Below, piece by piece: positions 7,689-25,075 of a stretch of 39,960 nt of DNA. The notes beneath the pieces were generated by a model. The model made no database searches, was not told where the DNA came from, and was given only the letters and a program-made list of their open reading frames with translations. Source of the stretch: an uncultured Lachnospiraceae bacterium (GTDB lineage: Bacteria > Bacillota > Clostridia > Lachnospirales > Lachnospiraceae); contig CADACD010000021.1 in NCBI GenBank assembly GCA_902786365.1, forward strand, positions 1-39,960, in the 5' to 3' direction. Made by a program: the position numbers and the translations under genes. How positions within the stretch are numbered: the first letter of the stretch is position 1; every line of letters starts with the position of its first letter.

Positions 7689-7787
7689 TATTTTCACCTC
7701 CTGATTAGAATATTGTTTATAGATTTTATCTATGCCTACCTGCTATCATAAATCTGCTTGTCATTAGCACATTTATTACAGGCTAAA

Positions 7788-7825
7788 AGCGTACACCAAT
7801 AGTACTCTGCTATTTAATGCACGCT
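7788..7825 (-). other. Structured 5' end of the rpsL leader
   Basis: At the predicted transcript start, AGCGTGCA pairs with TGTACGCT (8 bp, one G-U pair), enclosing a second stem AATAG/CTATT. The RNA would begin with a two-tier hairpin about 100 nt upstream of the ribosome site. It may protect the 5' end or take part in regulation. I do not recognise it as a named leader family. Confidence 0.45.
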
Positions 7826-7830
7826 TCTTT

Positions 7831-7859
7831 ATTATAGCTTTACACTTTCCATGTGTCAA
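7831..7859 (-). promoter_or_regulatory. Promoter of the str operon
   Basis: In the minus direction, consensus TTGACA (7854-7859), a 17-bp spacer and consensus TATAAT (7831-7836). This is a perfect sigma-A promoter, as expected for ribosomal genes. Predicted start is near 7824. It lies 45 nt beyond the atpC stop codon. Confidence 0.93.
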
Positions 7860-7903
7860 GCACATTTTTACTTTTATTTACCTTTATTTTACCCATCAAA
7901 TCA

Positions 7904-8317
7904 TTAATGGAAATCAAATTTCTCTTTTCCTTTGATTCTTGCAATCGCTCTCGCAAGGCTTGCACTTGAAACATGATATTCCATAATACTCTGCTTCTGT
8001 TTCAATTGCTCTCTTGCACGCTCAAATGCTGCCTCTGCTCTGAACTTATCTATCTCTTCCGGTCTCTCCGCAGAATATACAAGCACAGTCGCCTTATTTT
8101 TTTCCATATTGATAAGACCATCTGACACGATTGCCACATGTGTATCACCATCAGGAGTTCTAAAACTTATCTCTCCTATCTCAATACTACATGTCATCGA
8201 CTCATGATGAGCCATTATCGCCATCTGTCCTCCATATCCCGGAAATATCAAAATTTCACATTCACCATCATAGAAAACTCTGTTACATGCTATAATTCTC
8301 AGTGTAAATGTATTCAT
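7904..8317 (-). CDS. atpC: ATP synthase epsilon subunit
   Basis: A 137-residue epsilon subunit of F1, part of the central stalk and an intrinsic inhibitor. The N-terminal beta-sandwich carries the usual FPGYGGQMAIMAHHESM segment. The C-terminal helical pair (AEAAFERAREQLKQKQ) is present, so the regulatory extension is not truncated. Last gene of the atp operon, about 100 nt after atpD. I saw no clear hairpin terminator before the str promoter, so some read-through into rpsL is possible. Confidence 0.95.
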   Translation of the reverse strand: MNTFTLRIIACNRVFYDGECEILIFPGYGGQMAIMAHHESMTCSIEIGEISFRTPDGDTHVAIVSDGLINMEKNKATVLVYSAERPEEIDKFRAEAAFERAREQLKQKQSIMEYHVSSASLARAIARIKGKEKFDFH

Positions 8318-8419
8318 ATCGGCACTATCCTTTCTATATCATTCAGAAACTTTCTGAAATTTTGCGTAATTTTCTGAACATATCAATTGCAAACGTTGCA
8401 TTACAACTCAAAAGCAACA

Positions 8420-10775
<2,356 letters not shown>

Positions 10776-10802
10776 ATTCCACCTCCATGCCGGTAACTAT
10801 CT

Positions 10803-12626
10803 TTAAATCTGTTCTTCATTCTTGCTCTGTTTTTTAAATTCCATAGCCAAATCAATAATTGACTGTTCTAATTCTTCAGACAATTTCTTTTCCGTGTTAA
10901 GTTCATTGATGACATTGGAATGTTTTGTTTTGAACTCGTCAAGCATGTTTCTCTGAAATTCTTTGATATTCTCTTTCTCGATTCCACTAAATATATGTGC
11001 ATTTGCTGCTACAAGTGTAATCACCTGTTCTGCCATGCTCATCGGCACTCCAAGTGGCTGTTTTAACAATTCCATCAACGCGCTTCCATGCTCAAGCTGC
11101 TTTTTTGTATTATCATCTAAATCTGATGAAAACTGGGTGAATATCTCCATCTCCCTGTACTGCGCCAAATCAATACGGATACTTCCTGCCGCTTTCTTCA
11201 TCGCTTTTGTCTGTGCTGCTCCGCCAACACGGGAAACTGACAGACCCACATTAACCGCCGGTCTCTGACCTGCAAAAAACAATTCACTCTCAAGATAAAT
11301 CTGACCATCCGTTATCGAAATAACATTTGTTGGTATATAAGCAGACACATCTCCTGCCTGCGTTTCAATGATAGGGAGTGCTGTAATCGAACCTCCTCCA
11401 AGTTCATCACTAAGACGGCTTGAACGCTCCAAAAGTCTTGAATGCAGATAGAATACATCTCCCGGATATGCCTCTCGTCCCGGAGAACGTTCAAGTAACA
11501 GAGAAATTGCTCTGTATGCAACTGCATGTTTTGATAAATCATCATAGATAATCAGCACATCTTTACCCTGGTACATGAAATATTCCGCCAATGCTGTTCC
11601 AGAATAAGGTGCAATATACTGCAAAGGTGCCGGATCTGCTGCCGTAGCTGATACTACGATTGTGTAATCCATCGCATTTGCCTTTTCAAGCGTATTGACA
11701 AGTTTTGCAATTGTAGATGCTTTCTGGCCAATTGCAACATAGATACACACTACATGCTTGCCTCGCTGGTTAATAATGGTATCCGTAGCGATTGCTGTTT
11801 TACCTGTCTGTCTGTCACCGATAATCAGCTCACGCTGACCACGTCCGATTGGAAACATCGAATCGATTGCAAGGATACCCGTCTCCATTGGTACTGATAC
11901 AGACTTTCTGTCTGTAATTCCCGGTGCTGCACATTCAAGAGGTCTGAATCCCTCTGCGACAATCTCTCCTTTTCCGTCAATCGGATTTCCAAGAGCATCG
12001 ATAACTCTTCCCTTGTATCCGTCTCCTACAGAAATACCTGACATCCTGCCCGTTCTTCTGACTCTGGTTCCCTCTTTTATCTCTGTATCTCTTCCAAAAA
12101 GTATGACACCAATCTCATCACGTCGTATATCCTGTACCATACCTTTGATTCCATTTTCAAATACAACAATCTCACCATAAAAAGCATGTTCAATTCCGGT
12201 GATATTGGTAATTCCGTCACCAACCCAATTGACATATCCTATTTCTTCATCATTGATCCCCAAATCAAAATCTTGAATCTCAGTTCTAAGAATTGAAATG
12301 AATTTTTCTGATTTCTCAAACTCTGCTGACGCACTCTCTGAAGAAATCACTACTTTTTCAACTTTTTCTTTCAGCTGTGCTATTCTTCCCTCTTCGCTCC
12401 AGTCATATTCTTTATTCCCGGCACGAAGTATGAATCCACTCTTCAGAGACTCATCTTTTTCTATCTTTAAATCTATGTTCTCTTCATTGTCTTCATGTAA
12501 TTCTCTCGCAATAAACTTTTTGATACCCGATAACTGTTCTTCTGACGGCTCGGTAACACATATAAGAGTTGCCGCCTGCGCCTTGCTTTTTTTAGTATTC
12601 GCACCAAAACCTTCTGTATGTGTCAC
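10803..12626 (-). CDS. atpA: ATP synthase alpha subunit with fused delta C-terminal domain
   Basis: A 607-residue protein starting at GTG 12626, which overlaps the atpF stop (GTGA) and has AGGTGG upstream. Residues about 105-607 are a complete alpha subunit of normal length (~503): H1-like helix KFISILRTEIQDF, RTGRMSGISVGDGYKGRVID, Walker A GDRQTGKT at 270-277. Residues about 18-92 do not belong to alpha. They match the C-terminal domain of delta/OSCP: TLICVTEPSEEQL, then IEKDESLKSGFILRAGNK, then the SxxGRIAQLKEKV ending. The linker (93-104) is Ser/Glu rich. The delta N-terminal helical domain, which normally caps the alpha N-termini, is absent, and no atpH lies between atpF and this gene. 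The protein is likely functional, as the operon is otherwise intact. I infer that the fused domain takes over binding of the b stalk. Confidence 0.93.
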   Translation of the reverse strand: MTHTEGFGANTKKSKAQAATLICVTEPSEEQLSGIKKFIARELHEDNEENIDLKIEKDESLKSGFILRAGNKEYDWSEEGRIAQLKEKVEKVVISSESASAEFEKSEKFISILRTEIQDFDLGINDEEIGYVNWVGDGITNITGIEHAFYGEIVVFENGIKGMVQDIRRDEIGVILFGRDTEIKEGTRVRRTGRMSGISVGDGYKGRVIDALGNPIDGKGEIVAEGFRPLECAAPGITDRKSVSVPMETGILAIDSMFPIGRGQRELIIGDRQTGKTAIATDTIINQRGKHVVCIYVAIGQKASTIAKLVNTLEKANAMDYTIVVSATAADPAPLQYIAPYSGTALAEYFMYQGKDVLIIYDDLSKHAVAYRAISLLLERSPGREAYPGDVFYLHSRLLERSSRLSDELGGGSITALPIIETQAGDVSAYIPTNVISITDGQIYLESELFFAGQRPAVNVGLSVSRVGGAAQTKAMKKAAGSIRIDLAQYREMEIFTQFSSDLDDNTKKQLEHGSALMELLKQPLGVPMSMAEQVITLVAANAHIFSGIEKENIKEFQRNMLDEFKTKHSNVINELNTEKKLSEELEQSIIDLAMEFKKQSKNEEQI

Positions 12627-13111
12627 GATTTACCACCTGCTTTTTCTAAAAATTTATCATAGAGACTGCTGTCCATATCTGATGCGTTTTTCGCTCCGGC
12701 AACTTTTACTGCTGCATCGACAACAATATCTGCTATCTCTTTTTCTGCTTTCTTTACAATCTTCGCTTTTTCTCCCTCTGCCTTTGTGACTGCCTGTGTT
12801 TTGACTGTCTTAGCCTCTCTCTTTGCATCACTTATGATTCTCTGATATTCCTGGTCAGCAGACTTTCTTGCCTCTTCAAGAATCTTCTTTCTCTGTACTT
12901 CTGTATCCTCAATATTCTTTTCATATTGAGTTTTTAAAGTCTCTGCCTCTTCTAACTGCTGCTTTGCTTCGTTTAATTCTTTGTCCGCCTCTTTTTGTCT
13001 CTCTTCTAATATCTTCTGCACCGGTTTAAATAAAAATATTCTTAAAGCAACGAAAAGCACTAAAAGATTTACAACTGTAACTATTATATTTTCCGGACTT
13101 ATACTAAGCAT
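12623..13111 (-). CDS. atpF: ATP synthase b subunit (peripheral stalk)
   Basis: One N-terminal membrane helix (IIVTVVNLLVLFVALRIFLF) is followed by a long charged coiled coil rich in Glu, Lys and Ala (about residues 30-135), typical of subunit b. I choose the ATG at 13111, preceded by AGGAAGG, giving 162 residues; a 15-residue upstream extension has no ribosome site. The stop overlaps the start of the delta-alpha fusion gene, so translation is probably coupled. There is no delta domain fused to b (unlike the mycobacterial b-delta protein). Confidence 0.95.
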   Translation of the reverse strand: MLSISPENIIVTVVNLLVLFVALRIFLFKPVQKILEERQKEADKELNEAKQQLEEAETLKTQYEKNIEDTEVQRKKILEEARKSADQEYQRIISDAKREAKTVKTQAVTKAEGEKAKIVKKAEKEIADIVVDAAVKVAGAKNASDMDSSLYDKFLEKAGGKS

Positions 13112-13247
13112 ATTTCCTTCCTGCCTTTCTAACAAAAATTGTAACACTCTTGTCATTGCATTTTTTCAAAATACTTCGATATATATTTTGTCCATTGACT
13201 TTGTTACAAAAAATCTATGCTAACAATTTTCACCATTCATGTGTTAA

Positions 13248-13466
13248 TTACAATTTGATAACCATCATCAACGCAATAACGAATGCATAAATGGCTGTTG
13301 CTTCTGCCAACGCACATCCAAGAATTAATGTCTTGTTAATCTTACCTTCTGCCTCCGGCTGCCTTGCAATTGCTTCTGCTGCCTTTCCTGTTGCGATACC
13401 TATACTAATACCTGCTCCAATTACACCTAATGCAGCGATACCTGCACCTATTGCTATTACTGTCAT
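13248..13466 (-). CDS. atpE: ATP synthase c subunit (proton ring)
   Basis: A 72-residue hairpin of two membrane helices with the ARQPE loop. The ion-binding Glu lies in [16 protein letters not shown]. The residues that define sodium-binding c-rings (Gln in helix 1 and Ser after the Glu) are Ile and Ala here, so proton coupling is more likely. The start is the ATG at 13466 with AAGGAG eight bases upstream. Confidence 0.96.
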
Positions 13467-13593
13467 AATCAATTCTCCTTTTCATTGATATTTTATAATC
13501 TTATTTAATGCATAATTCATATTATGCTTATCATCTAACACTTCCTGTGTAACTTTAAACATATAATACAGACTTGCCAAATATCTGCAATTT

Positions 13594-14286
13594 CTATTCT
13601 TCCACAGCTTCACTGATATATAAAGATGTCAAAAAGATAAATACATATGCCTGAAGCAATCCGTCAAATAAATCAAAATAACAGCTAAATACTGCCGGCA
13701 AAACGTAAGGCACTACCATCTTGATTAATTCCATGATAACAAATGCACCCAGTACATTACCAAACAAACGCATACATAACGACAAAGGTTTTGTCACTAT
13801 TTCAAGAATATTAATTGGTGTGACAACTGCAATCGGCTCAACAAATTTGTGCAGCCATTTCTTTATACCTCGCTGATAAATTCCTGCTGCTTCCACTAAA
13901 ATGATACTCATCAATGCCAAAGCAAGAGTGACATTCAAATCTTTTGTTGGCGGTTTGAATCCAAAAAGACCTATGATGTTTGACACACCTATATACAAAA
14001 GTATTGTCGTAAGATATGTGACATATGATTTACCATGAGGGCCTACCATACCTTCTACCATTGATGTCAGTTTCGTCACAATTGTCTCAGCAAGTGCCTG
14101 CCTTTTACTGATGTTATGAACCTTCATATTCGTTGTAAGGATTATCGCAAATAATATAAGAATCGCCATCACAATCCATGTAACAACAACTGACTCGTAT
14201 ATATTCACCTGATAACCACCTAATGAAAATGAAAATACGGTCTCACACTCCAACTGCTCCATCAGTTCTTCTGCTATATTACCCAT
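13594..14286 (-). CDS. atpB: ATP synthase a subunit
   Basis: A 230-residue polytopic membrane protein. The essential Arg of the proton path is in KPLSLCMRLFGNVLGAF; the family helices FVEPIAVVTPINILEIVTKP and LQAYVFIFLTSLYISEA are present. First gene of the operon. No atpI gene precedes it. The start ATG is preceded by GGAAGTG. Confidence 0.95.
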   Translation of the reverse strand: MGNIAEELMEQLECETVFSFSLGGYQVNIYESVVVTWIVMAILILFAIILTTNMKVHNISKRQALAETIVTKLTSMVEGMVGPHGKSYVTYLTTILLYIGVSNIIGLFGFKPPTKDLNVTLALALMSIILVEAAGIYQRGIKKWLHKFVEPIAVVTPINILEIVTKPLSLCMRLFGNVLGAFVIMELIKMVVPYVLPAVFSCYFDLFDGLLQAYVFIFLTSLYISEAVEE

Positions 14287-14318
14287 ATACTCACTTCCTT
14301 TCCAAATGCAAAAACGGA

Positions 14319-14339
14319 TATAAAGCAGTCTGCTTTATA
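14319..14339. repeat. Perfect inverted repeat in the atp leader
   Basis: The 10-bp arms TATAAAGCAG and CTGCTTTATA flank a single base. The repeat lies between the predicted transcript start (~14374) and the atpB ribosome site. It could be an operator for a dimeric regulator or an mRNA hairpin. Confidence 0.55.
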
Positions 14340-14380
14340 CCTCGCTGTATATTGGATTGCATCTATTTTAATCGTCTCGA

Positions 14381-14409
14381 ATTGTATCACAAAAGTGTAG
14401 TATAATCAA
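14381..14409 (-). promoter_or_regulatory. Promoter of the ATP synthase operon
   Basis: In the minus direction, -35 TTGATT (14404-14409), 17-bp spacer, -10 TACAAT (14381-14386). The -35 box begins only 20 nt after the stop of the preceding ABC-cluster gene. Confidence 0.75.
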
Positions 14410-14428
14410 GACAAAAAAAAATGAAAAC

Positions 14429-14932
14429 TCAAATTTGCAATATCAAATCTATATAACTCCAAATCAAAAGTAAAGTATTTCCAAGTACCGGTTTATAGAT
14501 ACATGCCAAAGACCATTTTTCCGATACTACTCCTCCAATCGTGCTCAGTATCATAGCTGCCACAAACAATTTCATAACCATCTTCAAAAGATATTTTCTT
14601 CTTGACTTCACATATTCTTTTTTATTAATTCCAAATCCTTTTACCATATCATATAATTTCAGACCTTCACCGTTTATATTAATTTTGTAATACCTCCCCA
14701 TACGCAGAACAATCCCTAGCATAATAATAGCACATTGCAAGAATATTTCTTGCGATTCCAACTCATAGCTGAAAAGCCAAAATAAACTCCCCATCACAAA
14801 GAGTGGAACATATATTATCTTCATTATTAAAATATCAGAGTCATACATTTTTCCTATCTTTTCATCAAAAACCTTTAATTTAAGCTGAATATTATTTTCC
14901 GGATTTTTATCCATATTTTTATTTTTCTTCAT
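14429..14932 (-). CDS. Membrane protein at the end of the GntR/ABC cassette
   Basis: 167 residues from the ATG at 14932, which has GGAG six bases upstream. It has a Lys/Asn-rich cytoplasmic head, then paired hydrophobic stretches at about residues 40-80 (IIYVPLFVMGSLFWLFSYEL; FLQCAIIMLGIVLRMGRYY) and 120-165 (LFVAAMILSTIGGVVS; GNTLLLIWSYIDLILQI). No family recognised. By position, directly after an ABC ATPase, it is probably the membrane partner of that ATPase. With four predicted helices it is smaller than normal permeases. Confidence 0.65.
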   Translation of the reverse strand: MKKNKNMDKNPENNIQLKLKVFDEKIGKMYDSDILIMKIIYVPLFVMGSLFWLFSYELESQEIFLQCAIIMLGIVLRMGRYYKININGEGLKLYDMVKGFGINKKEYVKSRRKYLLKMVMKLFVAAMILSTIGGVVSEKWSLACIYKPVLGNTLLLIWSYIDLILQI

Positions 14933-14972
14933 ATTTCTCTCCAATTTTCATCCGCCTGTTTTAAACCGGTTA

Positions 14973-15623
14973 TTACATATCTTTTAGAATCCCATTTCTT
15001 ACATACGCTCTTCCTTCTTTTAACTCCACCACATAATCCATATGCCTCTTTACTTCTTCCTCATTATGTGTGCTGATGAGTATAGAATGTTTTTCATCCT
15101 CCATATATTGATGTAATATCTTAAAAAAATCTTTTCGAAACACCGGATCCATTCCCGCTGTTGCCTCATCAATTAAGAGAAGTTCTAAATTCCTTGACAA
15201 AGCTAATGCAAGCTGAAACTTCATTTTTTCACCACGTGATGAACTCTCTACATGTTTTGCATAGGAAAGTTTCATTTCATTCATCAGGCTTTTAAAAGTA
15301 TCTATCGAAAATTCGTCACAGAGTAGTCCACATAAGACTGCATTATCGAGCATACTTTTATTTCCAATGAATTTCTGTTCCTCACTTATCAGTCCTATTT
15401 TACCTCTATCCGCTTTAGGATTTTTTATATCCGTTCCATCAATAAGTATCTCTCCTGTATACTTGCTGTTTTGATTCATAAGCATCTGAAAAATAGTCGT
15501 TTTACCTGCACCATTTTTGCCTATCAGTCCTGTGATAAATCCCTGCTCTATATTAAATGAAATATCCTTAAGTTCAAAATTTTTTCTTGATTTATAATGA
15601 ATATTTTTCAATTCAACCTGCAT
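14973..15623 (-). CDS. ABC transporter ATP-binding protein (second ATPase of the cassette)
   Basis: 216 residues from the ATG at 15623 (MQVELKNIHYKSRKNF), preceded by AGAAGGTG. Walker A is GKNGAGKTT, Walker B LLLIDEATAG followed by MDP. The signature is degenerate (SSRGEKMKFQLALALS instead of LSGGQ). The D-loop/H-loop region ILISTHNEEEV is intact. Such compact ATPases are usual partners of YtrA-type regulators in Firmicutes. It lies 42 nt downstream of the GntR gene. The substrate is unknown; export of peptides, antibiotics or lipids is common in this group. Confidence 0.85.
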   Translation of the reverse strand: MQVELKNIHYKSRKNFELKDISFNIEQGFITGLIGKNGAGKTTIFQMLMNQNSKYTGEILIDGTDIKNPKADRGKIGLISEEQKFIGNKSMLDNAVLCGLLCDEFSIDTFKSLMNEMKLSYAKHVESSSRGEKMKFQLALALSRNLELLLIDEATAGMDPVFRKDFFKILHQYMEDEKHSILISTHNEEEVKRHMDYVVELKEGRAYVRNGILKDM

Positions 15624-15665
15624 ATCCACACCTTCTTTTACCAATTTGTGTTCTTTCATCATTCA

Positions 15666-16049
15666 TCAATTTGCCCACAATTCTTTCATCATTGTAATAA
15701 ACTCTTCCTCCGTCATTCCTGCATTTTTGCAGTTTCCAACAAGTTCAGCGGCAGTATTTTCCAATATGACGTACTGCTTTTCTTTCAAATAATTTTTATT
15801 TGCTTCACAGACATAAAAACCTTTACCGGGCACCGAACGAATGAGCTTTGACTTTTCAAGTACATCATATGCCCGCTTTGTTGTAATGACGCTGACCTCG
15901 AGCCTGCTGGCAAGTTTCCTTATGGAGGGCATTGCTTCTCCGGATTTCAGTTCTCCTGTCAAAATTAAGTTCTTTATTTGATTCACAATCTGCTCGTATA
16001 TGGCAAGATTACTGTTTGGATTGATGTATAAATTCATAATTTGTACCAT
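15666..16049 (-). CDS. GntR-family (YtrA-type) transcriptional regulator
   Basis: About 123-127 residues; the start is uncertain between the ATGs at 16049 and 16037. An N-terminal winged helix-turn-helix has the GntR pattern IYEQIVNQIKNLILTGEL, then MPSIRKLASRLEVSVITTKRAY and GKGFYV. The C-terminal tail is short, about 45 residues, with no large ligand domain; that is the YtrA subfamily. YtrA members usually repress their own ABC operons. A long inverted repeat over the cassette promoter (17917-17966) is its likely operator, by inference. Confidence 0.9.
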   Translation of the reverse strand: MVQIMNLYINPNSNLAIYEQIVNQIKNLILTGELKSGEAMPSIRKLASRLEVSVITTKRAYDVLEKSKLIRSVPGKGFYVCEANKNYLKEKQYVILENTAAELVGNCKNAGMTEEEFITMMKELWAN

Positions 16050-16094
16050 TCTTTCATATTTTAGACTGATATATTTCCTTGCACTTTTCCTGTA

Positions 16095-16910
16095 TTACAC
16101 ATATCTGTTTAATGCAATATCCATTGACTTTTTATAATGTTTCCGAATAACCCTTAAACATATCATGCTGTTCAAAAACAGAAAACAAAGTGCAGCAATA
16201 TAATATCTCTTTGTCACCTCCGGATTTTGACTTGATGGAAATTGATTTCTTATACTTATTTCATATATAAACTTAATCATAATATAAGATAGAATAAAAT
16301 TGACTATTCTAAAAAATATAAATATAGATGACAGACTAAACGTCCTCCTTTTCCCATTTTCACTGTCATAATAGTCTTCATACTCGTCTATATCCGATTT
16401 GCCAAACATCTTATTTTTCTCTGTTACTCTTGATTGTTGTGAATATAATGAATACATTTTTAAAGGACAACAAATATTAACTGTAACTGTAAATGTAATC
16501 AATGTCCATACTGAAACAAGAAACATTTCCCATGGTATCAATTTCAAACTCCAAATCACTGTTAACAGGACAGTTCCGGATATGATTGAAAATAGAATTT
16601 TTGTCTTTAATGCTGTTCTTATATATTTCTGCTTTTCTACTGTTGTAAGTGGACACAGATTCATCATTTTATTTAGCATGTTAGGATACATCACAGGTAT
16701 CAGATAAATGATTGTGAATAACAAAATAGTAACCATTTCTGCCACTTCTATTTTTGTCCCATATTTGCCATATTGACGATTTTTTTTTAAAATCTGTGGG
16801 GTCGGATTCACAACAAAAATGTATATCCATAAAAGCTGACCACTATTCACTATATTTTTAAGTCCATTTCTGATTCCATACCGATAATTTTCTAAAACAT
16901 CTCTCACCAT
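16095..16910 (-). CDS. ABC transporter permease-like membrane protein
   Basis: 271 residues with about six hydrophobic segments: IVNSGQLLWIYIFVV, MVTILLFTIIYLIPVMY, ILFSIISGTVLLTVIW, FLVSVWTLITFTVTVNI, IFIFFRIVNFILSYIMIKF and YIAALCFLFLNSMICL. An acidic cytoplasmic loop (DIDEYEDYYDSENGKRR) lies between the fourth and fifth. I do not recognise a named family, but its place after an ABC ATPase suggests it forms the channel for it. AGGT lies shortly before the ATG. Confidence 0.7.
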   Translation of the reverse strand: MVRDVLENYRYGIRNGLKNIVNSGQLLWIYIFVVNPTPQILKKNRQYGKYGTKIEVAEMVTILLFTIIYLIPVMYPNMLNKMMNLCPLTTVEKQKYIRTALKTKILFSIISGTVLLTVIWSLKLIPWEMFLVSVWTLITFTVTVNICCPLKMYSLYSQQSRVTEKNKMFGKSDIDEYEDYYDSENGKRRTFSLSSIFIFFRIVNFILSYIMIKFIYEISIRNQFPSSQNPEVTKRYYIAALCFLFLNSMICLRVIRKHYKKSMDIALNRYV

Positions 16911-17014
16911 ATATATACCTACTTTCTTACTCTGCTCTTTATCTATGTGATTTTAATCTCAAACATATACAAATCTATGTTTTCCTTTCATAACATTTTT
17001 CAATTATTACTACT

Positions 17015-17872
17015 TCACTTCATACCCTTAATCGTATAATACATGATTTCTTCGACTGTTGGTCTTCTGACCTTTAACATTTTGTCATATGACTTTCCAT
17101 ATTTCGTATTTTTCACAAGTGCCGTTGTTCCCAGTTCATTTTCCTCCATATGAACAACTCTGTCTTCATTAATTAATTTTATCTTGTACTTTTCACCCTG
17201 CACAATGCTGTACTTATCAAGAAATGTTTCTATATCCTGACTTATTAAGACTTCTCCATGATGGATAAATGTAATATAATCTGCAATCTTATCTAAATCA
17301 CTTGTGAGATGCGTTGCAAGAATCACACTGTGTTCTCCATCACTCACAAATTCTGTGATTGTTTTTAAAAACTGTTCTCTAAATTCAGGATCAAAATTCG
17401 CTGTCGGCTCATCAAGCACTAAAAGTTTTGGTTGATGAGCAAGAGCGAATGCAAATTGAAATTTCAATTTCTGTCCCTTAGATAATTCTTTATACTTTTG
17501 TTTCTTATCAAGTTTGAATCTGCGTAAATAGTCATCAAGAATATTTCTATCATAATTTTCATAATATTTTCCATAGATTTCCGCATTGCCATAAAGAGTC
17601 ACTGCCGGATAAAACAATTCATCTGTCATCACAAATCCTATATCTTTTTTGATTTTCTTTTCATCCTCTTCACTGCCACTGTAATTCATTCCAAACAGAT
17701 GGACAGTTCCTTTGTCCGGCTTATATAGTCCCAGTATAATATTTAAAATAGTTGTTTTTCCTGAACCGTTTTCTCCAATTAAACCCATGATATAGCCTTT
17801 TCCCAGCATAAATGATATATTATTCAGACTAAATACTCCGACTTTTTTAGAAACTTCTGTCAATTTAAGCAT
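17015..17872 (-). CDS. ABC transporter ATP-binding protein (first ATPase of the cassette)
   Basis: 285 residues from the ATG at 17872 (MLKLTEVSKKVGVFSL), which has AAAGGAG seven bases upstream. The eight-residue upstream extension overlaps that site and is rejected. Walker A GENGSGKTT, signature LSKGQKLKFQFAFALA, Walker B LLVLDEPTANFDP, H-loop ILATHL. The C-terminal ~70 residues extend beyond the nucleotide-binding domain, as in YtrB-like proteins. First gene of the cassette, with promoter and probable operator directly upstream. Confidence 0.9.
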   Translation of the reverse strand: MLKLTEVSKKVGVFSLNNISFMLGKGYIMGLIGENGSGKTTILNIILGLYKPDKGTVHLFGMNYSGSEEDEKKIKKDIGFVMTDELFYPAVTLYGNAEIYGKYYENYDRNILDDYLRRFKLDKKQKYKELSKGQKLKFQFAFALAHQPKLLVLDEPTANFDPEFREQFLKTITEFVSDGEHSVILATHLTSDLDKIADYITFIHHGEVLISQDIETFLDKYSIVQGEKYKIKLINEDRVVHMEENELGTTALVKNTKYGKSYDKMLKVRRPTVEEIMYYTIKGMK

Positions 17873-17916
17873 AGACGCACTCCTTTCATTTTTCAAAAGC
17901 GGTTCATAGGCAAAAC

Positions 17917-17966
17917 AGACTGTCTATAAACTGTATATATGTCAATATACACTTTATAGACAGTCT
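17917..17966. promoter_or_regulatory. Probable operator: 22-bp inverted repeat over the cassette promoter
   Basis: The left arm 17917-17938 and right arm 17945-17966 are complementary except at one position, with a 6-bp centre. The outer 14 bp (AGACTGTCTATAAA) are perfect. It covers the whole -35/-10 spacer, the -10 box and the transcript start, so a bound dimer or tetramer would block RNA polymerase. The obvious candidate ligand is the YtrA-type regulator encoded in the same operon. Confidence 0.8.
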
Positions 17967-17972
17967 TGTCAA
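17944..17972 (-). promoter_or_regulatory. Promoter of the GntR/ABC cassette
   Basis: In the minus direction, consensus -35 TTGACA (17967-17972), 17-bp spacer, -10 TATATT (17944-17949). The first start codon is about 65 nt downstream of the transcript start. Confidence 0.85.
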
Positions 17973-18041
17973 GTACATTTTTAAGTCAATCAAAACTCTA
18001 TTTGCTACTGCATTCCAAATACATTTACAATCATAAAAATA

Positions 18042-18083
18042 AGCTGTCTTTAGACCATATTTTTACATGGTTCAAAGACAGCT
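18042..18083 (-). terminator. Terminator of the por operon
   Basis: A 17-nt arm pair (AGCTGTCTTT... / ...AAAGACAGCT) with two internal mismatches and a short A/T loop. It is followed in the minus direction by TATTTTTATG. It lies 75 nt after the porB stop. Confidence 0.8.
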
Positions 18084-18157
18084 ATCTCAAATATAATTAA
18101 AACGTATGCGCAAACTATTTCTACATTTTCAAAACTCGATATTAAACATACACTAAG

Positions 18158-19099
18158 TTAAGCATTTGCTTTTACTTTCAGTTCTTCCCATCTTCTGTCA
18201 ACTTCTTCCTGGAACTGAACGATCAAATCTTCATTGCCTTTCTTGAAGAGATGTTTGAATCTTCCCTGTTTCTTTAAGAAATCTTCGATTGGGAGTTTAT
18301 TCTTCGGCTCATAGTTGATAATCCATTTGCCATTTTCCACTTCAAAGAGCGGCCAATAACATGTTTCAACAGCAAGTTTACAGATTTCCGCCATATCTGC
18401 TGCCTCAAATCTCCAGCCTCTCGGACATGGTGCCATAATATTTAAAAATGCCGGGCCTTCTGTGTAAATCGCTTTTTCAGATTTAACATAGAGGTCTTTT
18501 AAATTTCCGATAAAGGTTGTCTGTGCTGTATAAGGAATATTGTGTGCAGCCATTACTGCCACTAAATCCTTTCTCACCTGTGGTTTACCATTGGATTGTG
18601 TACCTGCCGGTGTTGTTGTTGTATCAGCATACATTGGAGTGGCTGATGAACGCTGAATACCTGTGTTCATGTAAGCGCCATTATCATAACAGACATAGAC
18701 CATATCATGTCCTCTCTCCATTGCACCTGAAAGTGACTGCAAACCGATATCATACGTACCACCATCACCACCAAATGTGATGAATTTATAATTTTCTTTT
18801 ATCTTTCCACGTTTCTGGAGTGCCTTATATGCTGTTTCTGCTCCTGCGAGAGTTGCGCCCGCATTTTCAAATGCACTGTGGATATAACTGTCCTCATATG
18901 AGTTATATGGATATGTGAAGGAAGACACTTCAAGACATCCCGTAGCATTACCCACTACTGCCTTATCGCCCGGATGAATCGCTTTTAGAACATTACGAAC
19001 TGCTATCGTTCCACCACAGCCTGCACACATTCTGTGACCCGGAGCAAGTCTTTCAGGTCTTTCCTGAATCTCTTTAAAATTAAATTTATTTTCCATCAT
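18158..19099 (-). CDS. porB: Pyruvate/2-oxoacid:ferredoxin oxidoreductase, beta subunit
   Basis: 313 residues. This subunit binds thiamine diphosphate and a proximal 4Fe-4S cluster. Visible cysteines: two in HRMCAGCGG, one in GNATGCLEVS and one in APCPRGWRF, the full set for the cluster. The cofactor/Mg motif is GGDGGTYDIG with YDNGAYMNTG. With alpha, gamma and delta it oxidatively decarboxylates pyruvate (or a related 2-oxoacid) to acyl-CoA with reduction of ferredoxin, in the cytoplasm. Last gene of porGDAB. The pyruvate specificity is inferred from overall similarity, not from a diagnostic residue. Confidence 0.92.
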   Translation of the reverse strand: MMENKFNFKEIQERPERLAPGHRMCAGCGGTIAVRNVLKAIHPGDKAVVGNATGCLEVSSFTYPYNSYEDSYIHSAFENAGATLAGAETAYKALQKRGKIKENYKFITFGGDGGTYDIGLQSLSGAMERGHDMVYVCYDNGAYMNTGIQRSSATPMYADTTTTPAGTQSNGKPQVRKDLVAVMAAHNIPYTAQTTFIGNLKDLYVKSEKAIYTEGPAFLNIMAPCPRGWRFEAADMAEICKLAVETCYWPLFEVENGKWIINYEPKNKLPIEDFLKKQGRFKHLFKKGNEDLIVQFQEEVDRRWEELKVKANA

Positions 19100-19190
19100 A
19101 TTTAACTACCTTTCTGTAAAATTAACCGATATGAATTTCCTGCTATGTTGAGTTCATTATTCAAATTTTCCTGCAAAGGAACAATCTATC

Positions 19191-20372
19191 TTACTCTCTT
19201 ACACCAACATATCTGTAGCCTTCCTCTTTTACTCCGTTGACAGCCACATCTGCAAGGTCTTCATAAATCTTTTCAAAATCTTCCACTGTCATATCTCTTC
19301 CTGAAAGACCATATACAATATTCAAAACCTCTGCCTGATTCTTGTTCTTAAACAAAGCTGCGCCTAACTCTGCTGAAAGTGGACCGCCATTTGCGCTGTA
19401 GCTTTCACATCTGTCCATGATAGCAATTGCTTTACAATTTGCAAGTGCATCTGCCATCTCTTTTCCAGGGAATGGTCTGAATACTCTGACTTTGAGAAGT
19501 CCTGCCTTCACTCCTTTTTCCCTTAATTTATCAATTGCATCTTTTGCAGTTCCACACGCAGAACCGATAGCTACCACTGCATAATCTGCATCCTCTAAGC
19601 GATATTCTTCAAATAATCCATATTTTCTTCCTGACATCTCCTCAAATTCTTTTGCGACATCAAGGATAACCTGTTTCGCATTCATCATCGCCTGTGCCTG
19701 TGCACGTTTAGCCTCCATACAGTAATTTGATACTGCATAAGGTCCGATTGCCATTACCTCATCTTTATTGAGAAGGTAATGTTCAGGTTTGTATTCTCCA
19801 ACAAAATTCTTTACCAGATCATCCTCTAACAGTGTAATATTTTCAACAGCATGGCTTGTGATAAATCCATCCATACATGCCATGATTGGCAGCATGACAT
19901 CTTTATGTTCGGCAATTCTGTATGCCATGACAAAGTTATCATATGCCTCCTGATTATTCTCTGCATAAATCTGAATCCAACCGGAATCTCTCGCTCCCAT
20001 ACTGTCTGAATGTTCACAGTTGATGTTAAGCGGACCTGTCAGTCCTCTGTTAACAAGTGCAAGTGCAATTGGAAGCCTGTCTGATGCTGCCACATAAAGT
20101 ACTTCCCACATATAAGCAAGTCCACATGAAGAAGTTGCGGTCAGTGTTCTTGCGCCTGCTGCTGATGCACCGATTGCTGCACTCATGGAACTATGCTCAC
20201 TCTCAACCGGAATAAATTCTGTATCGATTTCACCATTTGCAATATAATTTGAAACAAACTGAGGAAGTTCTGTAGATGGTGTAATCGGGAATGCCGGCAT
20301 TACATCCGGATTAATCTGCTTGATTGCGTATGCAACTGCCTCATTTCCTGACATTCTCTCTTTTATTGCCAT
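19191..20372 (-). CDS. porA: Pyruvate/2-oxoacid:ferredoxin oxidoreductase, alpha subunit
   Basis: 393 residues. The N-terminal pyrimidine-binding domain is recognised by MSGNEAVAYAIKQINPDV, FPITPSTELPQFV and VESEHSSMSAAIGASAAG. The C-terminal half has the RVFRPFPGKE segment typical of alpha chains, consistent with CoA binding. The ribosome site overlaps the end of porD (stop at 20374), so the two are coupled. A 91-nt gap separates it from porB. Confidence 0.93.
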   Translation of the reverse strand: MAIKERMSGNEAVAYAIKQINPDVMPAFPITPSTELPQFVSNYIANGEIDTEFIPVESEHSSMSAAIGASAAGARTLTATSSCGLAYMWEVLYVAASDRLPIALALVNRGLTGPLNINCEHSDSMGARDSGWIQIYAENNQEAYDNFVMAYRIAEHKDVMLPIMACMDGFITSHAVENITLLEDDLVKNFVGEYKPEHYLLNKDEVMAIGPYAVSNYCMEAKRAQAQAMMNAKQVILDVAKEFEEMSGRKYGLFEEYRLEDADYAVVAIGSACGTAKDAIDKLREKGVKAGLLKVRVFRPFPGKEMADALANCKAIAIMDRCESYSANGGPLSAELGAALFKNKNQAEVLNIVYGLSGRDMTVEDFEKIYEDLADVAVNGVKEEGYRYVGVRE

Positions 20373-20373
20373 T

Positions 20374-20688
20374 TTACTTTCCCTCCTTCATTGTAATTGC
20401 ATGAAACGGACAGACTCCGACACATATACCACAACCCTTGCAGTGGTCATAATCAAAATCAAGTCTCTTGCCATCCTTAACAGGTATTGAACTGTCAGGA
20501 CAATATGGTACACATAACAGACACTGTTTGCATTTTTCAAAATCAATTACAGGTGTGTTCACTCTCCACTCTCCTGTATTAAATAATTTAGATGAACCAT
20601 TTTCATATATCTGTAAGCCCGGTGTCAAATCCTGCCATTTTACAGTCTCATCTATGTTTTCAGTTTTAAATTTATCTTCTAACATGTT
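20374..20688 (-). CDS. porD: Pyruvate:ferredoxin oxidoreductase, delta subunit (2x 4Fe-4S ferredoxin)
   Basis: About 104 residues counted from the ATG at 20688, with GGAGG twelve bases upstream; an 18-residue extension into porG is open but less likely. It carries two complete cluster motifs, CKQCLLCVPYCP and CKGCGICVGVCP, relaying electrons from the TPP site to external ferredoxin. Like other PorD proteins it has a short N-terminal region before the clusters (GEWRVNTPVIDFEKC). Confidence 0.93.
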   Translation of the reverse strand, partial: NMLEDKFKTENIDETVKWQDLTPGLQIYENGSSKLFNTGEWRVNTPVIDFEKCKQCLLCVPYCPDSSIPVKDGKRLDFDYDHCKGCGICVGVCPFHAITMKEGK

Positions 20689-20725
20689 TTCAATTTTCCT
20701 CCATTTCCTGGTTAATTCACCTAAA

Positions 20726-21298
20726 CTACTGAACCTGTTCAAGTGCTGCTTTAAGTGCCTTCATATTTCCTTCAAGCACTTCCGGTTTCTTTGCAAATTT
20801 ATGTTCAAGAGATGACTTCATCTCACTGATAAATCTTTCCTCATCCATCACCTCTGTAATCTTCACCATTGCTGCAAGCATTGGCATGTTCGGGAAGTAT
20901 TTTCCAAGTGCCTCCTCCGAAATCTTTCTCGCATCTATTGTATAAACTTTTCCTTTATATCCATTCAGAAGCGGAATAATTTCCTCTTTACTCTTCTCGG
21001 TATTAATCAATATTCCACCATCTTCACTCAATCCTTTTGTCACATCAACTGTATGTAATAATGTCTCATCAACAACTGCAACGAAATCCGGGTCATAAAT
21101 ATTAGAATGCACTCTGATGACATTGTCACTAATTCTGTTGTAAGCTGTAATTGGTGCTCCCATTCTCTCCGGACCATATTCAGGAAATCCCTGCACATTT
21201 TTTCCAATATTAAATGCTACATCCGCAAGCAAAAGAGCGGCAGTTTTAGCCCCCTGACCGCCTCGTCCATGCCAGCGGATTTCAATCAAATCTCTCAT
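20726..21298 (-). CDS. porG: Pyruvate:ferredoxin oxidoreductase, gamma subunit
   Basis: 190 residues. The family signature is at the start: EIRWHGRGGQGAKTAALLLA, then FPEYGPERMGAPITAYNRIS. First gene of the four-gene porGDAB operon. AAGGAAGG precedes the ATG. The leader is about 135 nt from the predicted promoter. Confidence 0.93.
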   Translation of the reverse strand: MRDLIEIRWHGRGGQGAKTAALLLADVAFNIGKNVQGFPEYGPERMGAPITAYNRISDNVIRVHSNIYDPDFVAVVDETLLHTVDVTKGLSEDGGILINTEKSKEEIIPLLNGYKGKVYTIDARKISEEALGKYFPNMPMLAAMVKITEVMDEERFISEMKSSLEHKFAKKPEVLEGNMKALKAALEQVQ

Positions 21299-21439
21299 TT
21301 GTCTTTCCTTCCTTACTTGTTTATAGATAATTACTATTTATCCCGATGCTTCCTGATTCACCGAAACTCCAAATGTATAAATAAGATTGTTTCCGACTAT
21401 ACAGTTACGGCTATAAATAGTGATAAATATATATTATAT

Positions 21440-21468
21440 AGTATAATCACATGAAATCGGGTTGTAAA
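21440..21468 (-). promoter_or_regulatory. Promoter of porGDAB
   Basis: In the minus direction, -35 TTTACA (21463-21468), 17-bp spacer, -10 TATACT (21440-21445). It is followed by an AT-rich leader with no obvious riboswitch. Confidence 0.75.
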
Positions 21469-21549
21469 GTTTTTTTTGTCATTGACTTTATTTTACACTA
21501 TATTACTATTGTAAAGAACAAAGTGCCTCGTTATTCTTTTAAATAAAGT

Positions 21550-21590
21550 AAGGACAGCACTCGTTTGGCAAATACACGAGTGCTGTCCTT
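21550..21590 (-). terminator. Strong terminator after the amylase gene
   Basis: Perfect 15-bp inverted repeat (AAGGACAGCACTCGT / ACGAGTGCTGTCCTT) with an 11-nt loop, followed in the minus direction by a T-rich tail. It lies 63 nt beyond the amylase stop and separates it from the por promoter. Confidence 0.9.
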
Positions 21591-21652
21591 ATCAGTTTTA
21601 TCATTTCCTTCAATTGCTTGTTAAGGAAAATAATTATTTTATTTTTTTGCTG

Positions 21653-24600
21653 TTACTTTACCCATATTCCTTCACTGTTAACATAATACTTTCCACCATC
21701 TACCCATTCATCCGTAGCCATAACACCGTTTGATTTGAGATAATAGTAATTTGAACCTTCTTGGTACCAGCCTGTCTGCATATATCCGTTTGCATCAAAG
21801 TGATACCATTTTTCACTAATCTTTTTCCATGCATTCTTCGAATAGGTTCCATCTGCATTCTGGTACCACCAGCCTTTGCTGTCCTGTTTCCAGCCCTCTG
21901 TCACCTTTTTCTTGCCCTCTATCCATTTTCCACTTGCATCAACATAGTATTTATCATTTTCTACCCATTCATCTGTTGCCATTACACCATTCGACTTCAG
22001 GTAGCAGTATGTGCTTCCTTCTTTGTACCAGCCGGTCTGCATATATCCGCTTGCATCAAAATGATACCATTTTTCACTAATCTTCTTCCATGCATTCTTT
22101 GGATAAGTTCCATCTGCATTCTGGTACCACCAGCCTTTGCTGTCATGTTTCCAGCCCTCTGTCACCTTTTTCTTGCCCTCTATCCATTTTCCATTTGCAT
22201 CAACATAGTATTTATCATTTTCTACCCATTCATTTGCTGCCATTACACCATTCGACTTCAGGTAGTAGTATGTACTTCCTTCTTTGTACCAACCGGTCTG
22301 CATATATCCGCTTGCATCAAAGTGATACCATTTTCCATCAATCTTTTTCCATGCATTCTTCGGATAGGTTCCATCTGCATTCTGATACCACCAGCCTTTG
22401 CTGTCATGTTTCCAGCCCTCTGTCACTACTTCCTCATTCACTGTTACTGAACATGCGGCCGTATATCCTCCGTCTGTCGTTTTTACAGTAATCACTGCAC
22501 TTCCCTTGGCAACCGCTGTCACTACACCACTACCGGATACCTTCGCCACTGATGTATTACTTGATGACCATGTTACATTCTTGTTTGTTGCGTTACTTGG
22601 AGCTACGATTGCGTTTAATGAAACCGTTCCATTAATTGATACTGAAGCACTTGTCTTATCCAGGTTCACACCTGTTACAGCCACTTCATCACCTCCACCA
22701 CTGTAAACACTCCATTTTCCTGTGCTTGCATCGTAGATGTAGCCATCTCCTGCAAAAGTAAGGTCTGCTGTCTGTGAAGCTCCTGCATTAGTGAAAATGA
22801 TTTTGTTATATTCAGATTCTGTATCATACTCATATGAGAAAACTGTGCTGTCTGAAGTCTTTGTCATCGCAACTCCAGGCCATACGTTATTCACCTGTGT
22901 TGTGCTGTTCCACATATAAGCTGTCGGGCTTGTCCATCCATTTGTATTCTTAAAGTATACCATACCTGTGGTTGGCTGAGGATTTTCTGTTACTGTCACA
23001 TTGCATGTTGCTGTAAATCCACCATCCTCAGTGGTAACTGTGATTAATGTTGTTCCAATTTTTTTTGCTAAAACCACTCCTGTACTGCTTACAGATGCTA
23101 CTGATGAATCAGATGATGACCATGTCACATTCGTATTAGATGCATCTGTCGGTGCCACATTCGCTGTCAAAGTTGCTGTATTGTTAGGTGCAATACTTAA
23201 TTTTGATTTATTAATAGAAACTCCAGTAACAGCTACTTGTGGTGCTTCTGTCTTTGTATATGTATACGTCCTTGTTACTGTTCCTGCACTGTTAGAGCCT
23301 GTAAGCGTTAATGTTACACTCTGTCCTATTGCAAGGCTCTTACCTACTACGATTGTCGTATCACCTGAGATTGTACCGCTCTCTCCTGTAGAAAGTTTAT
23401 AAGATGCAGAAGTACAATTCTTAGCAATCAATGATACTTCTAAGGAGTTTGCTGCAAATTTAGTACCATCTCCCTTAGATGCAGCCACCCACGCTTTCTT
23501 GTCCGCTGTAGGATTAGGCATTACATTCTGATAAACAACAGCTACACCCATGTCACTTCCAATAGTACCCGAAAGTGTACCACCGGATACGGTAAATGTA
23601 TTACCTGAAACCTCGTCTTTGTATGTACCATCTGCCATTCCATGAGAACTCATTGATACACTTCCTGAACCATTAAAGCTGGCAAGAACGATACCGTTTC
23701 CTCTCTGACAATACATGACATTTCCATCACATCCGATATTATCTGCAATACCGGAAAATCTGTTGTTAAAATGGTTAATCGCAGCTACTTCATTCGAACA
23801 CCATACATAAGTATTGCATTCGCCCATGATTGCCGGTGCAACTTCACCAATTGCATCATTAGACTTAATATTGTTATCCGCATCATTGCTAAGGATATCT
23901 GATGAGTTATAAGGTCTTACAAAGAATAACTTTGCTGCATTATCTTTGTTAGCCAGCATTGCCCATGCTCTTACAATCGATTTGTCTGACGCATAAACAG
24001 ATGACTCGTTCATATATGTATCATGTGATTCTGCCCAGATGACTGATTTGTCTGATGCATAGTGCTGGCTGATATTACCTGCATTGTTGTTTCTGACTGC
24101 ATCTAAGAAACTATTACCTGCAGCATTATCTGTTACTGACATATATTTGGTATAAGAACCGATATCAAAACCATCTCCTACTGTGTTTAATACCTCACCA
24201 TACACATAAAGGTCTCCACCATTTACTGACTTATAGTGTGATCTTGCCTCATTAAGCACAGTTGGCCAGAAGGCACTGGCAAAATCACCATCATCCGGTG
24301 TTTCAATATGCTTTGCTGCATCAAATCGGAAACCGTCTACACCACAGTCAATCAATTCATCCAAATACTCATAGATATATTTCTGGACAGTCTTGTTTGC
24401 TGTATTCAAGTCAGGCATTCCCATACTACCTTGTGTGAAATCTCTTCTTCCGTCACTCATCCATACCTGAAGGTCATTAATGTGCCAGTACTCTTCATTC
24501 ACCAGCATATCCGGATTCCAGTAAGTACCTACCTCGGGAGATACATCCGATAAAGAGTTCTTCCATCCTGAAATATTCGCCATATGGTTAGCTACAATAT

Positions 24601-25075
24601 CTACTACAACTTTGATACCATATTTTTCTGCTGTATCACACATCGACTTAAGTTCTGCCTTCGTTCCTAAATAAGACATCCCATTGTCATCTACGCACTC
24701 TGCTACCGGCTGGTACAATTTCCACCAGTTACCGGAACCAAATAACTTTGGCCATCCTACACAAGTATCGATAACACCTTCCCATACATAATCCTTACCC
24801 TGTGTACAAGGCGAAGTCTGAATCACTGAGTAACCACTCTGGGCAATCAACTCCATATTGTCCTCTATCGTCTTGTAGGACCAGTTGAAGCAATGAAGTA
24901 TTGTTGCATCCTGCACATTACTAATCAACCCATAGTCTGTTCCTGCCGCATTCGCCGTGACAGTACCCAAACTGCCTGAAAATACATTGAACGGTCCCAC
25001 ACCTGAAAATGCCATGCATAATGCGAGTGTTACCGCACTGACTTTTGTTACGATCTGCTTAAATCGCTTTTTCAT
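21653..25075 (-). CDS. Secreted multidomain alpha-amylase (GH13)
   Basis: 1140 residues. A signal peptide (MKKRFKQ... hydrophobic core, cleavage after about residue 43 at ANA-A) is followed by a GH13 barrel, residues ~46-515. Catalytic motifs: DIVANH (159-164), GFRFDAAKH (248-256, nucleophile D252), YGEV (acid/base E294) and ESHD (H351, D352). Residues ~520-610 form an Ig-like module of unclear family. Two Big_2 Ig-like domains lie at ~614-697 and ~797-880. Between them (704-792) is a CBM26-type starch-binding module (VYFKNTNGWTSPTAYMW). The C-terminus (884-1140) has three near-identical 87-residue wall-binding repeats (GWWYQNADGTY, GYMQTGWY). No LPXTG motif. It probably cleaves starch outside the cell while held non-covalently on the wall. 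Monocistronic, with its own promoter and terminator. Confidence 0.95.
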   Translation of the reverse strand: MKKRFKQIVTKVSAVTLALCMAFSGVGPFNVFSGSLGTVTANAAGTDYGLISNVQDATILHCFNWSYKTIEDNMELIAQSGYSVIQTSPCTQGKDYVWEGVIDTCVGWPKLFGSGNWWKLYQPVAECVDDNGMSYLGTKAELKSMCDTAEKYGIKVVVDIVANHMANISGWKNSLSDVSPEVGTYWNPDMLVNEEYWHINDLQVWMSDGRRDFTQGSMGMPDLNTANKTVQKYIYEYLDELIDCGVDGFRFDAAKHIETPDDGDFASAFWPTVLNEARSHYKSVNGGDLYVYGEVLNTVGDGFDIGSYTKYMSVTDNAAGNSFLDAVRNNNAGNISQHYASDKSVIWAESHDTYMNESSVYASDKSIVRAWAMLANKDNAAKLFFVRPYNSSDILSNDADNNIKSNDAIGEVAPAIMGECNTYVWCSNEVAAINHFNNRFSGIADNIGCDGNVMYCQRGNGIVLASFNGSGSVSMSSHGMADGTYKDEVSGNTFTVSGGTLSGTIGSDMGVAVVYQNVMPNPTADKKAWVAASKGDGTKFAANSLEVSLIAKNCTSASYKLSTGESGTISGDTTIVVGKSLAIGQSVTLTLTGSNSAGTVTRTYTYTKTEAPQVAVTGVSINKSKLSIAPNNTATLTANVAPTDASNTNVTWSSSDSSVASVSSTGVVLAKKIGTTLITVTTEDGGFTATCNVTVTENPQPTTGMVYFKNTNGWTSPTAYMWNSTTQVNNVWPGVAMTKTSDSTVFSYEYDTESEYNKIIFTNAGASQTADLTFAGDGYIYDASTGKWSVYSGGGDEVAVTGVNLDKTSASVSINGTVSLNAIVAPSNATNKNVTWSSSNTSVAKVSGSGVVTAVAKGSAVITVKTTDGGYTAACSVTVNEEVVTEGWKHDSKGWWYQNADGTYPKNAWKKIDGKWYHFDASGYMQTGWYKEGSTYYYLKSNGVMAANEWVENDKYYVDANGKWIEGKKKVTEGWKHDSKGWWYQNADGTYPKNAWKKISEKWYHFDASGYMQTGWYKEGSTYCYLKSNGVMATDEWVENDKYYVDASGKWIEGKKKVTEGWKQDSKGWWYQNADGTYSKNAWKKISEKWYHFDANGYMQTGWYQEGSNYYYLKSNGVMATDEWVDGGKYYVNSEGIWVK
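21656..22426 (-). repeat. Three tandem ~261-bp repeats in the amylase 3' end
   Basis: The three units lie at about 22166-22426, 21905-22165 and 21656-21904. They encode the wall-binding repeats and are nearly identical at the DNA level. Units 1 and 2 share the KHDSKGWW block; unit 3 has KQDSKGWW. Such homogeneity suggests recent duplication or gene conversion and makes copy number prone to change or assembly error. Confidence 0.85.

Follow-up and report, generated by a model that had tools for sequence, protein, structure and literature searches.

The window analysed here, a stretch of 39,960 nucleotides from an uncultured Lachnospiraceae bacterium, carries an F-type ATPase operon in the order a-c-b-[delta CTD-alpha]-gamma-beta-epsilon, where CTD denotes the C-terminal domain of delta, and every gene of the operon lies above its Pfam cut-off. 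The genes, all on the reverse strand, are atpB (subunit a, 13594..14286 (-); PF00119, 147.6 bits, with the motif LCMRLFGN), atpE (subunit c, 13248..13472 (-); PF00137, 63.6 bits, its ATG probably at 13466), a single copy of atpF (subunit b, 12623..13156 (-); PF00430, 59.1 bits), the fusion gene (10803..12626 (-)), atpG (gamma, 9834..10775 (-); TIGR01146, 264.1 bits), atpD (beta, 8420..9823 (-); TIGR01039, 808.4 bits, with Walker A, GERSREG and EELSDED) and atpC (epsilon, 7904..8317 (-); TIGR01216, 78.9 bits). The product of atpF is an ordinary b subunit of 177 aa with no OSCP match, and no other delta, or part of a delta, was found elsewhere in the operon.

The fusion gene is read from 12626 to 10803 as a single open frame of 607 aa, which opens with GTG and contains no internal stop. 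The GTG overlaps the stop codon of atpF (junction GCAGGTGGTAAATCGTGACAC) and has AGGTGG six bases upstream of it, such that the start is indeed coupled to atpF, as an initial annotation of this DNA had proposed. Among the first 140 codons an in-frame ATG, GTG or TTG is found at codons 1, 93 and 122, and a Shine-Dalgarno-like sequence (judged by eye) at codon 1 only; there is no plausible start codon near residue 105, at which the alpha part begins. The identical joint, moreover, recurs across many independent assemblies. An annotation artefact, already judged improbable in that annotation, is made the more so by these observations: the fusion of a delta CTD to alpha is real and uninterrupted.

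Residues 13-88 of the fused protein (12363..12590 (-)) form the b-binding C-terminal domain of delta/OSCP. They match positions 99-171 of PF00213 (OSCP) at 23.1 bits (E 8.7e-5), a small margin over the curated cut-off of 22.3, and a whole-genome search with PF00213 gave 26.4 bits (E 1.1e-5) for the fusion. In other words, what passes the cut-off is the C-terminal half of delta, and the N-terminal helical domain, which would precede position 99 of the profile, is absent. When the N-terminal 108 codons were compared as a single sequence with PDB chains, the signal was weak: the best hits were delta chains at E 0.014-0.021, with unrelated antibody light chains and WHY2 near E 1. Profile-profile comparison with a delta alignment returns a probability of 100%, which is not independent evidence because the delta profile contains these fusion sequences; the fusion-type CTDs of relatives align readily to complete deltas. 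The AlphaFold2 model of the fusion, built on 44 aligned sequences (mean pLDDT 71.4), has a strand at 18-23, a helix at 29-42, strands at 52-57, 65-69 and 72-75 and a helix at 78-97, a beta-alpha-beta-beta-beta-alpha order, after which pLDDT falls below 50 at 98-105. When the CTD was modelled alone (65 sequences; pLDDT 79.3, pTM 0.54), the model gave 17 PDB matches at E <= 0.001, all of them chains of ATP synthase entries and, wherever chain names were given, delta/OSCP chains. Residues from about 17 to 97 are thus predicted to fold like the OSCP CTD.

The linker that follows (residues 89-104, 12315..12362 (-)) partly prolongs the last CTD helix and leads to a complete alpha body (10803..12314 (-)), which opens with a predicted alpha N-terminal helix (residues 106-118, 12273..12311 (-)), the motif of which is common to unfused alphas. 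From residue 105 the alpha part matches positions 3-500 of TIGR00962 over residues 105-600 at 754.7 bits (cut-off 484.45), and it contains GDRQTGKT and SVSRVGGAAQ, with Walker A at residue 270 and the latter motif at residue 463, as befits an F-type alpha. Both the delta/OSCP domain, which the initial annotation had placed at residues ~18-92, and its in-frame run into a full-length alpha are therefore upheld by profile search and by structure prediction.

A second complete F-ATPase operon is present in the same genome, on another contig (L003:6288-13254, contig C16). Its separate delta of 182 aa is the one full-length delta of the genome, and ahead of the operon small membrane proteins are encoded that resemble the products of AtpI/AtpZ-type genes. 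The c-subunit of this operon has Q and ETT..Y at positions which we take to be a Na+ signature, and this second F-ATPase is probably of the Na+ type; the window c-subunit lacks the Q and has EAT, for which reason the fused enzyme is probably a proton enzyme. RnfC is also present in the genome (511 bits). In this genus the window operon seems to provide an accessory enzyme: two same-genus genomes gave no match to the fusion when searched, and the alignment of each to the window runs through rpsG-rpsL without taking in the ATPase operon. In one of these congeners (L171) other genes follow rpsL, up to its amylase-like gene; in the window, the interval from rpsL to the amylase-like gene (7700-25075) is occupied by the ATPase operon and, judged by eye, by genes of ABC/GntR and 2-oxoacid:ferredoxin oxidoreductase-like type. 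An ORF at 908-1405 of the window resembles, also by eye, part of a putative IS21-type transposase.

The window layout recurs in dozens of genomes. In a survey of 396 genomes of the family, a profile spanning the joint (match threshold E <= 1e-38) found matches in 143, and 87 of the matches span the joint, 74 of them without an internal stop. When sorted by frame length, which is a rough proxy for layout (the 787-aa frame of G068 is counted as full-length, yet its OSCP match starts at profile position 54), the 74 comprise 44 frames of 560-659 aa, 27 of at least 660 aa and 3 cut by contig ends. Alphas of ~600 residues, for which the initial annotation had looked to the Lachnospiraceae, are thus many in the genomes of this family. 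Among the 13 joint-spanning matches with a stop, those of G002 and G007 proved on reading to be uninterrupted CTD-only fusions (L009, L014). A similar survey of 398 genomes of the phylum gave at least 16 uninterrupted fusions; of the fusions listed, 11 lie outside the class, under six family codes, and all 11 proved on reading to be CTD-only (L146-L156).

Loci were read for the best 80 of 578 confirmed relatives, a choice biased to close ones, and for 29 more from a 150-genome sample of the family. The 80 are mostly labelled Lachnospiraceae, Clostridia, or with genera such as Mediterraneibacter, Blautia and Eubacterium. Three layouts are found: a separate delta and alpha (layout S); a full-length delta fused to alpha (layout F), with frames of about 670 aa and with L034, L036, L048, L053, L076 and L081 among its loci; and the CTD-only delta-alpha fusion of the window (layout C), with frames mostly of 580-625 aa. 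Across the deduplicated set, which has 57 fused rows, the linker from CTD end to alpha start measures 9-20 residues. In all, 113 alpha rows were sorted, 49 into S, 35 into F and 28 into C, with one left unclassified. These rows include copies of both the window and the second operon, while L024, the contig of which ends early, was never among them.

A deduplicated alpha tree of 104 rows (S 46, F 32, C 25 with the window included, and the genome's own second alpha) leaves out copies (L001, L002, L004), duplicates (L005, L009, L018, L025, L028) and the unclassified L080, which was dropped by the duplicate filter. It needs 17 layout changes, and its well-supported branches alone force at least seven for C, at least seven for F and at least two for S. 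An alpha tree of 129 rows (LG model, quick search) was made after removal of 17 near-copies of the first set, of new copies or near-copies (L115, L116, L120, L139, L144, L148, L164 and the full-length fusion L114) and of L141, which has no usable alpha. On this tree fused versus separate needs 8 changes, at least four of them forced by starred branches, and presence or absence of the delta N-domain needs 19, at least seven of them forced. Most separate relatives sit within the mostly fused part of the tree, and L146-L156 (10 after removal of one near-copy) fall on three separate branches. Layout changes thus recur on the alpha tree, although the counts carry no direction and some of the changes may be re-splitting.

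Some individual loci may be mentioned here. At L072:6192-6300, within a well-supported and mostly fused clade, an unfused delta and alpha lie in frame with one stop and then an ATG between them, possibly a re-split fusion. In the unfused relatives L019 (1683-1795), L021, L077, L088 and L103 a GGAGG lies within the last delta codons (GGAGGTGA), just before the alpha start, such that delta and alpha are tightly coupled in these relatives and near to fusing. None of 46 separate deltas is without the N-domain; in another family, L163:4685-5144 (-) encodes a separate delta of 153 aa that is short of about 20 N-domain profile positions.

Twenty-four chosen genomes were searched for atpA: that of the window, 17 of its family, chosen as having the fusion and a single delta match, and six from outside, for which having the fusion was the sole ground of choice. 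In 22 of the 24 no alpha but the fused one exceeds the cut-off, a figure which, the genomes having been chosen, is not a rate; two alphas exceed the cut-off in the window's genome (G000) and in G944. The only alpha is fused in five of the six outside genomes, including the single-contig G717 and G1076 (rated 100% complete, both CTD-only). Matches below the atpA cut-off in some of the 24 are taken as V-type subunits. When the search for delta was extended to 28 genomes (the 24 and four more), 25 proved to have no above-cut-off delta apart from the fusion; G000, G944 and G809 have a separate delta as well. That the delta N-domain might be encoded elsewhere was rejected following a search of the 28 genomes with PF00213 at E up to 0.1, which gave three sub-cut-off matches only (13.7-15.1 bits, in G360, G000 and G079), none convincing. 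In G062 the PF00213 match spans profile positions 22-170, across a stop, and its upstream part is taken as the putative helical end of b. Each F1 contains three alphas, such that in genomes where the sole alpha is fused each F1 head should carry three CTDs, and with them three stalk docks.

In an ordinary F1 the delta N-domain lies on the three-fold axis, where it grips the alpha N-termini and where there is room for one, and the alpha N-terminal helix contacts delta. An F-type ATP synthase is, as a rule, taken to have a single a-subunit. A delta CTD-alpha fusion has been engineered in Bacillus PS3 by Ueno et al. 2025 (PMC12229609; PDB 9jc1). Delta residues 2-104 were deleted and the delta C-terminus was joined to the alpha N-terminus via a short linker. 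The resulting deltaDeltaN-alpha FoF1 carries up to three stalks (on average about two), each with its own a-subunit; its H+/ATP is 5.8 vs 3.0, and a less steep proton gradient suffices for it to make ATP. The delta N-domain, on the pseudo-three-fold axis, is argued in PMC12229609 to restrict the stalks to one.

By analogy, every alpha of the window enzyme would bear the b-binding delta CTD, the delta N-domain being gone, and b2 stalks would dock directly on each unit of CTD and alpha N-terminus. More than one b2-a unit could then assemble round one c-ring. The ion/ATP ratio would climb with the number of a-subunits and, as a consequence of this raised ratio, ATP would still be made, or spared from hydrolysis, at low proton-motive force. 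We infer both the direct docking and the additional stalks from the design that the window shares with the engineered PS3 enzyme (PMC12229609), and on balance we favour the view that the window encodes a natural deltaDeltaN-alpha stator. Of its parts, the role of the fused CTD as stalk dock is very probable, while the likelihood of a multi-stalk assembly is evenly poised. The broader proposition is put forward more tentatively, at somewhat short of even likelihood: that multi-stalk F-type ATP synthases occur naturally and have arisen repeatedly in Bacillota, loss of the N-domain freeing the three-fold axis, such that up to three b2-a units surround each c-ring and the ion/ATP ratio is raised two- to three-fold.

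It may instead be that the alpha CTD simply replaces delta as the tether of a single stalk, with one b2-a unit, two CTDs left empty and an ordinary ion/ATP ratio, in which case loss of the N-domain would be mere economy after fusion. This we doubt, while regarding it as a serious possibility. The window operon and 18 further operons that were read each have a single gene for a and a single gene for b, and the DNA therefore gives no sign of the excess of a and b that multiple stalks need. Moreover, the share of triple-stalk molecules in cryo-EM of the engineered enzyme is extremely low, which its authors blame on dissociation, but that same enzyme, of the same design as the window fusion, averaged two a-subunits with a doubled H+/ATP (PMC12229609). 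The three sites are, furthermore, identical, with no known bar to further stalks. The full-length fusions lend the single stalk some weight, since they keep a constrained N-domain: among pairs with a CTD identity of 0.40-0.60, mean N-domain pair identity is 0.362 in full-length fusions vs 0.370 in separate deltas. No relaxation of the N-domain is seen in full-length fusions, and fusion alone does not, therefore, imply many stalks; with their N-domains not relaxed, full-length fused enzymes probably still use one of them. Full-length fusions would bring three N-domains to each F1, although an ordinary F1 has room for one.

In keeping with the delta contacts that a natural deltaDeltaN-alpha stator would have lost, the mean entropy of the alpha N-terminal helix is 0.60 bits in S, 1.35 in F and 2.05 in C, the corresponding values for the 45 alpha columns that follow being 0.78, 0.85 and 1.25. 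The trend is uncorrected for relatedness, and the C set is more divergent overall. A tie between fusion and ion type was considered and rejected, since in most rows the c-subunit looks much the same whether the relative is fused or unfused. One branch with a different c includes five CTD-only loci (L097, L107, L109 and L113, with L098, which has no c match), the first four of which have GxVFIET where most relatives have AEAT. Among the loci listed, the genome's second operon alone bears what we take to be the Na+ signature.

An improbable reading is that of mixed subunits, by which an internal start or proteolysis frees some alpha and each F1 holds one CTD-bearing alpha. The window does have a GTG at codon 93, but this lacks a Shine-Dalgarno-like sequence; a few relatives have a possible in-frame start near the alpha boundary, the best being that of L109, an ATG at the boundary with a fair Shine-Dalgarno-like sequence, AGAAGG, five bases before it. 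A scan across the 57 fused joints, however, showed no conserved start position, and in many rows there is no candidate at all. A programmed 1:2 stoichiometry by internal start, for which single rows only have candidates, is rejected on this ground, and three CTDs per F1 are to be expected in cells whose sole alpha is fused. A functionless, decaying accessory operon or an assembly artefact is very improbable indeed, for while the genome holds a second complete F-ATPase and the two congeners searched are without the window operon, all seven genes are intact, alpha, beta, a and c retain their key motifs, and the layout is found in dozens of genomes and provides the sole alpha in 22 of the 24 examined.

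If the natural deltaDeltaN-alpha stator does work with several stalks, anaerobes could go on producing ATP, or be spared its waste, at proton-motive forces at which an ordinary enzyme would run in reverse, and the window organism would pair a low-gear H+ enzyme with an ordinary, probably Na+-driven one. Carriers in which the sole alpha is fused let the multi-stalk question be tested without a background enzyme, and the full-length delta-alpha fusions are natural controls for the CTD-only type, in that a single stalk is expected of them if it is the N-domain that limits the number.

The initial annotation passed over both the loss of the delta N-domain and the three docks per F1 that would follow, and it knew of no described alpha fusion. 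This last point has to be corrected, since Ueno et al. 2025 engineered exactly such a fusion and noted natural ones without the delta N-domain (Acidaminococcus fermentans; UniProt G4Q3K6, A0A1I2C5T3) in PMC12229609, and the window fusion accordingly belongs to a kind already in print. Like the PS3 construct, the window has the delta CTD in frame before alpha, no N-domain and no separate delta in the operon. Indeed, positions 27-593 of the profile of the window family (A3) cover residues 7-575 of 9jc1_I without a break, and the spacing of the two differs by a net two residues. Unlike the construct, the stalks and H+/ATP of which were measured, the window fusion is natural and known from sequence, and its epsilon keeps the helical domain (PF00401), whereas the epsilon C-domain was removed from the construct. 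With the Acidaminococcus fermentans and UniProt cases, by that paper's description, the window shares the fused delta-alpha and the missing delta N-domain. Its relatives also include full-length delta-alpha fusions, of which the accessible part of PMC12229609 makes no mention. In distinction to the Acidaminococcus case, the relatives of the window are mostly labelled Lachnospiraceae, and its genome adds a second, ordinary F-ATPase.

The mycobacterial b-delta fusion, present in one copy per enzyme, likewise ties stalk parts into one chain. It joins delta to a b-type chain, not to alpha, and its delta is almost whole (profile 15-155 of 164; PDB 7jg5 and others; NF009961); the window b scores 29.1 against the NF009961 cut-off of 328 and is not of this type. 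The N-ATPases (TIGR03324) resemble the window in that their F-type operon has no gene for a separate delta; that N-ATPase operons lack delta agrees with the order of genes given in PMC5709465. Unlike them, the window retains a delta CTD, and its alpha, at 605.2 against the TIGR03324 cut-off of 750.5, falls outside the group. In their accessible parts, the 2017 survey (PMC5709465) describes a delta/b fusion, with no delta/alpha fusion seen there, and that of 2014 (PMC4154653) contains nothing on delta/alpha fusion. In the open-licence literature no report was found of Lachnospiraceae or full-length delta-alpha fusions, nor a biochemical test of a natural fusion without the N-domain. What the present analysis adds to these known systems, as far as the literature was searched, is the spread of the fusion, the full-length delta-alpha type, the genomes in which a fused alpha is the only one, and the co-residence of the fusion with a standard, probably Na+-type, F-ATPase.
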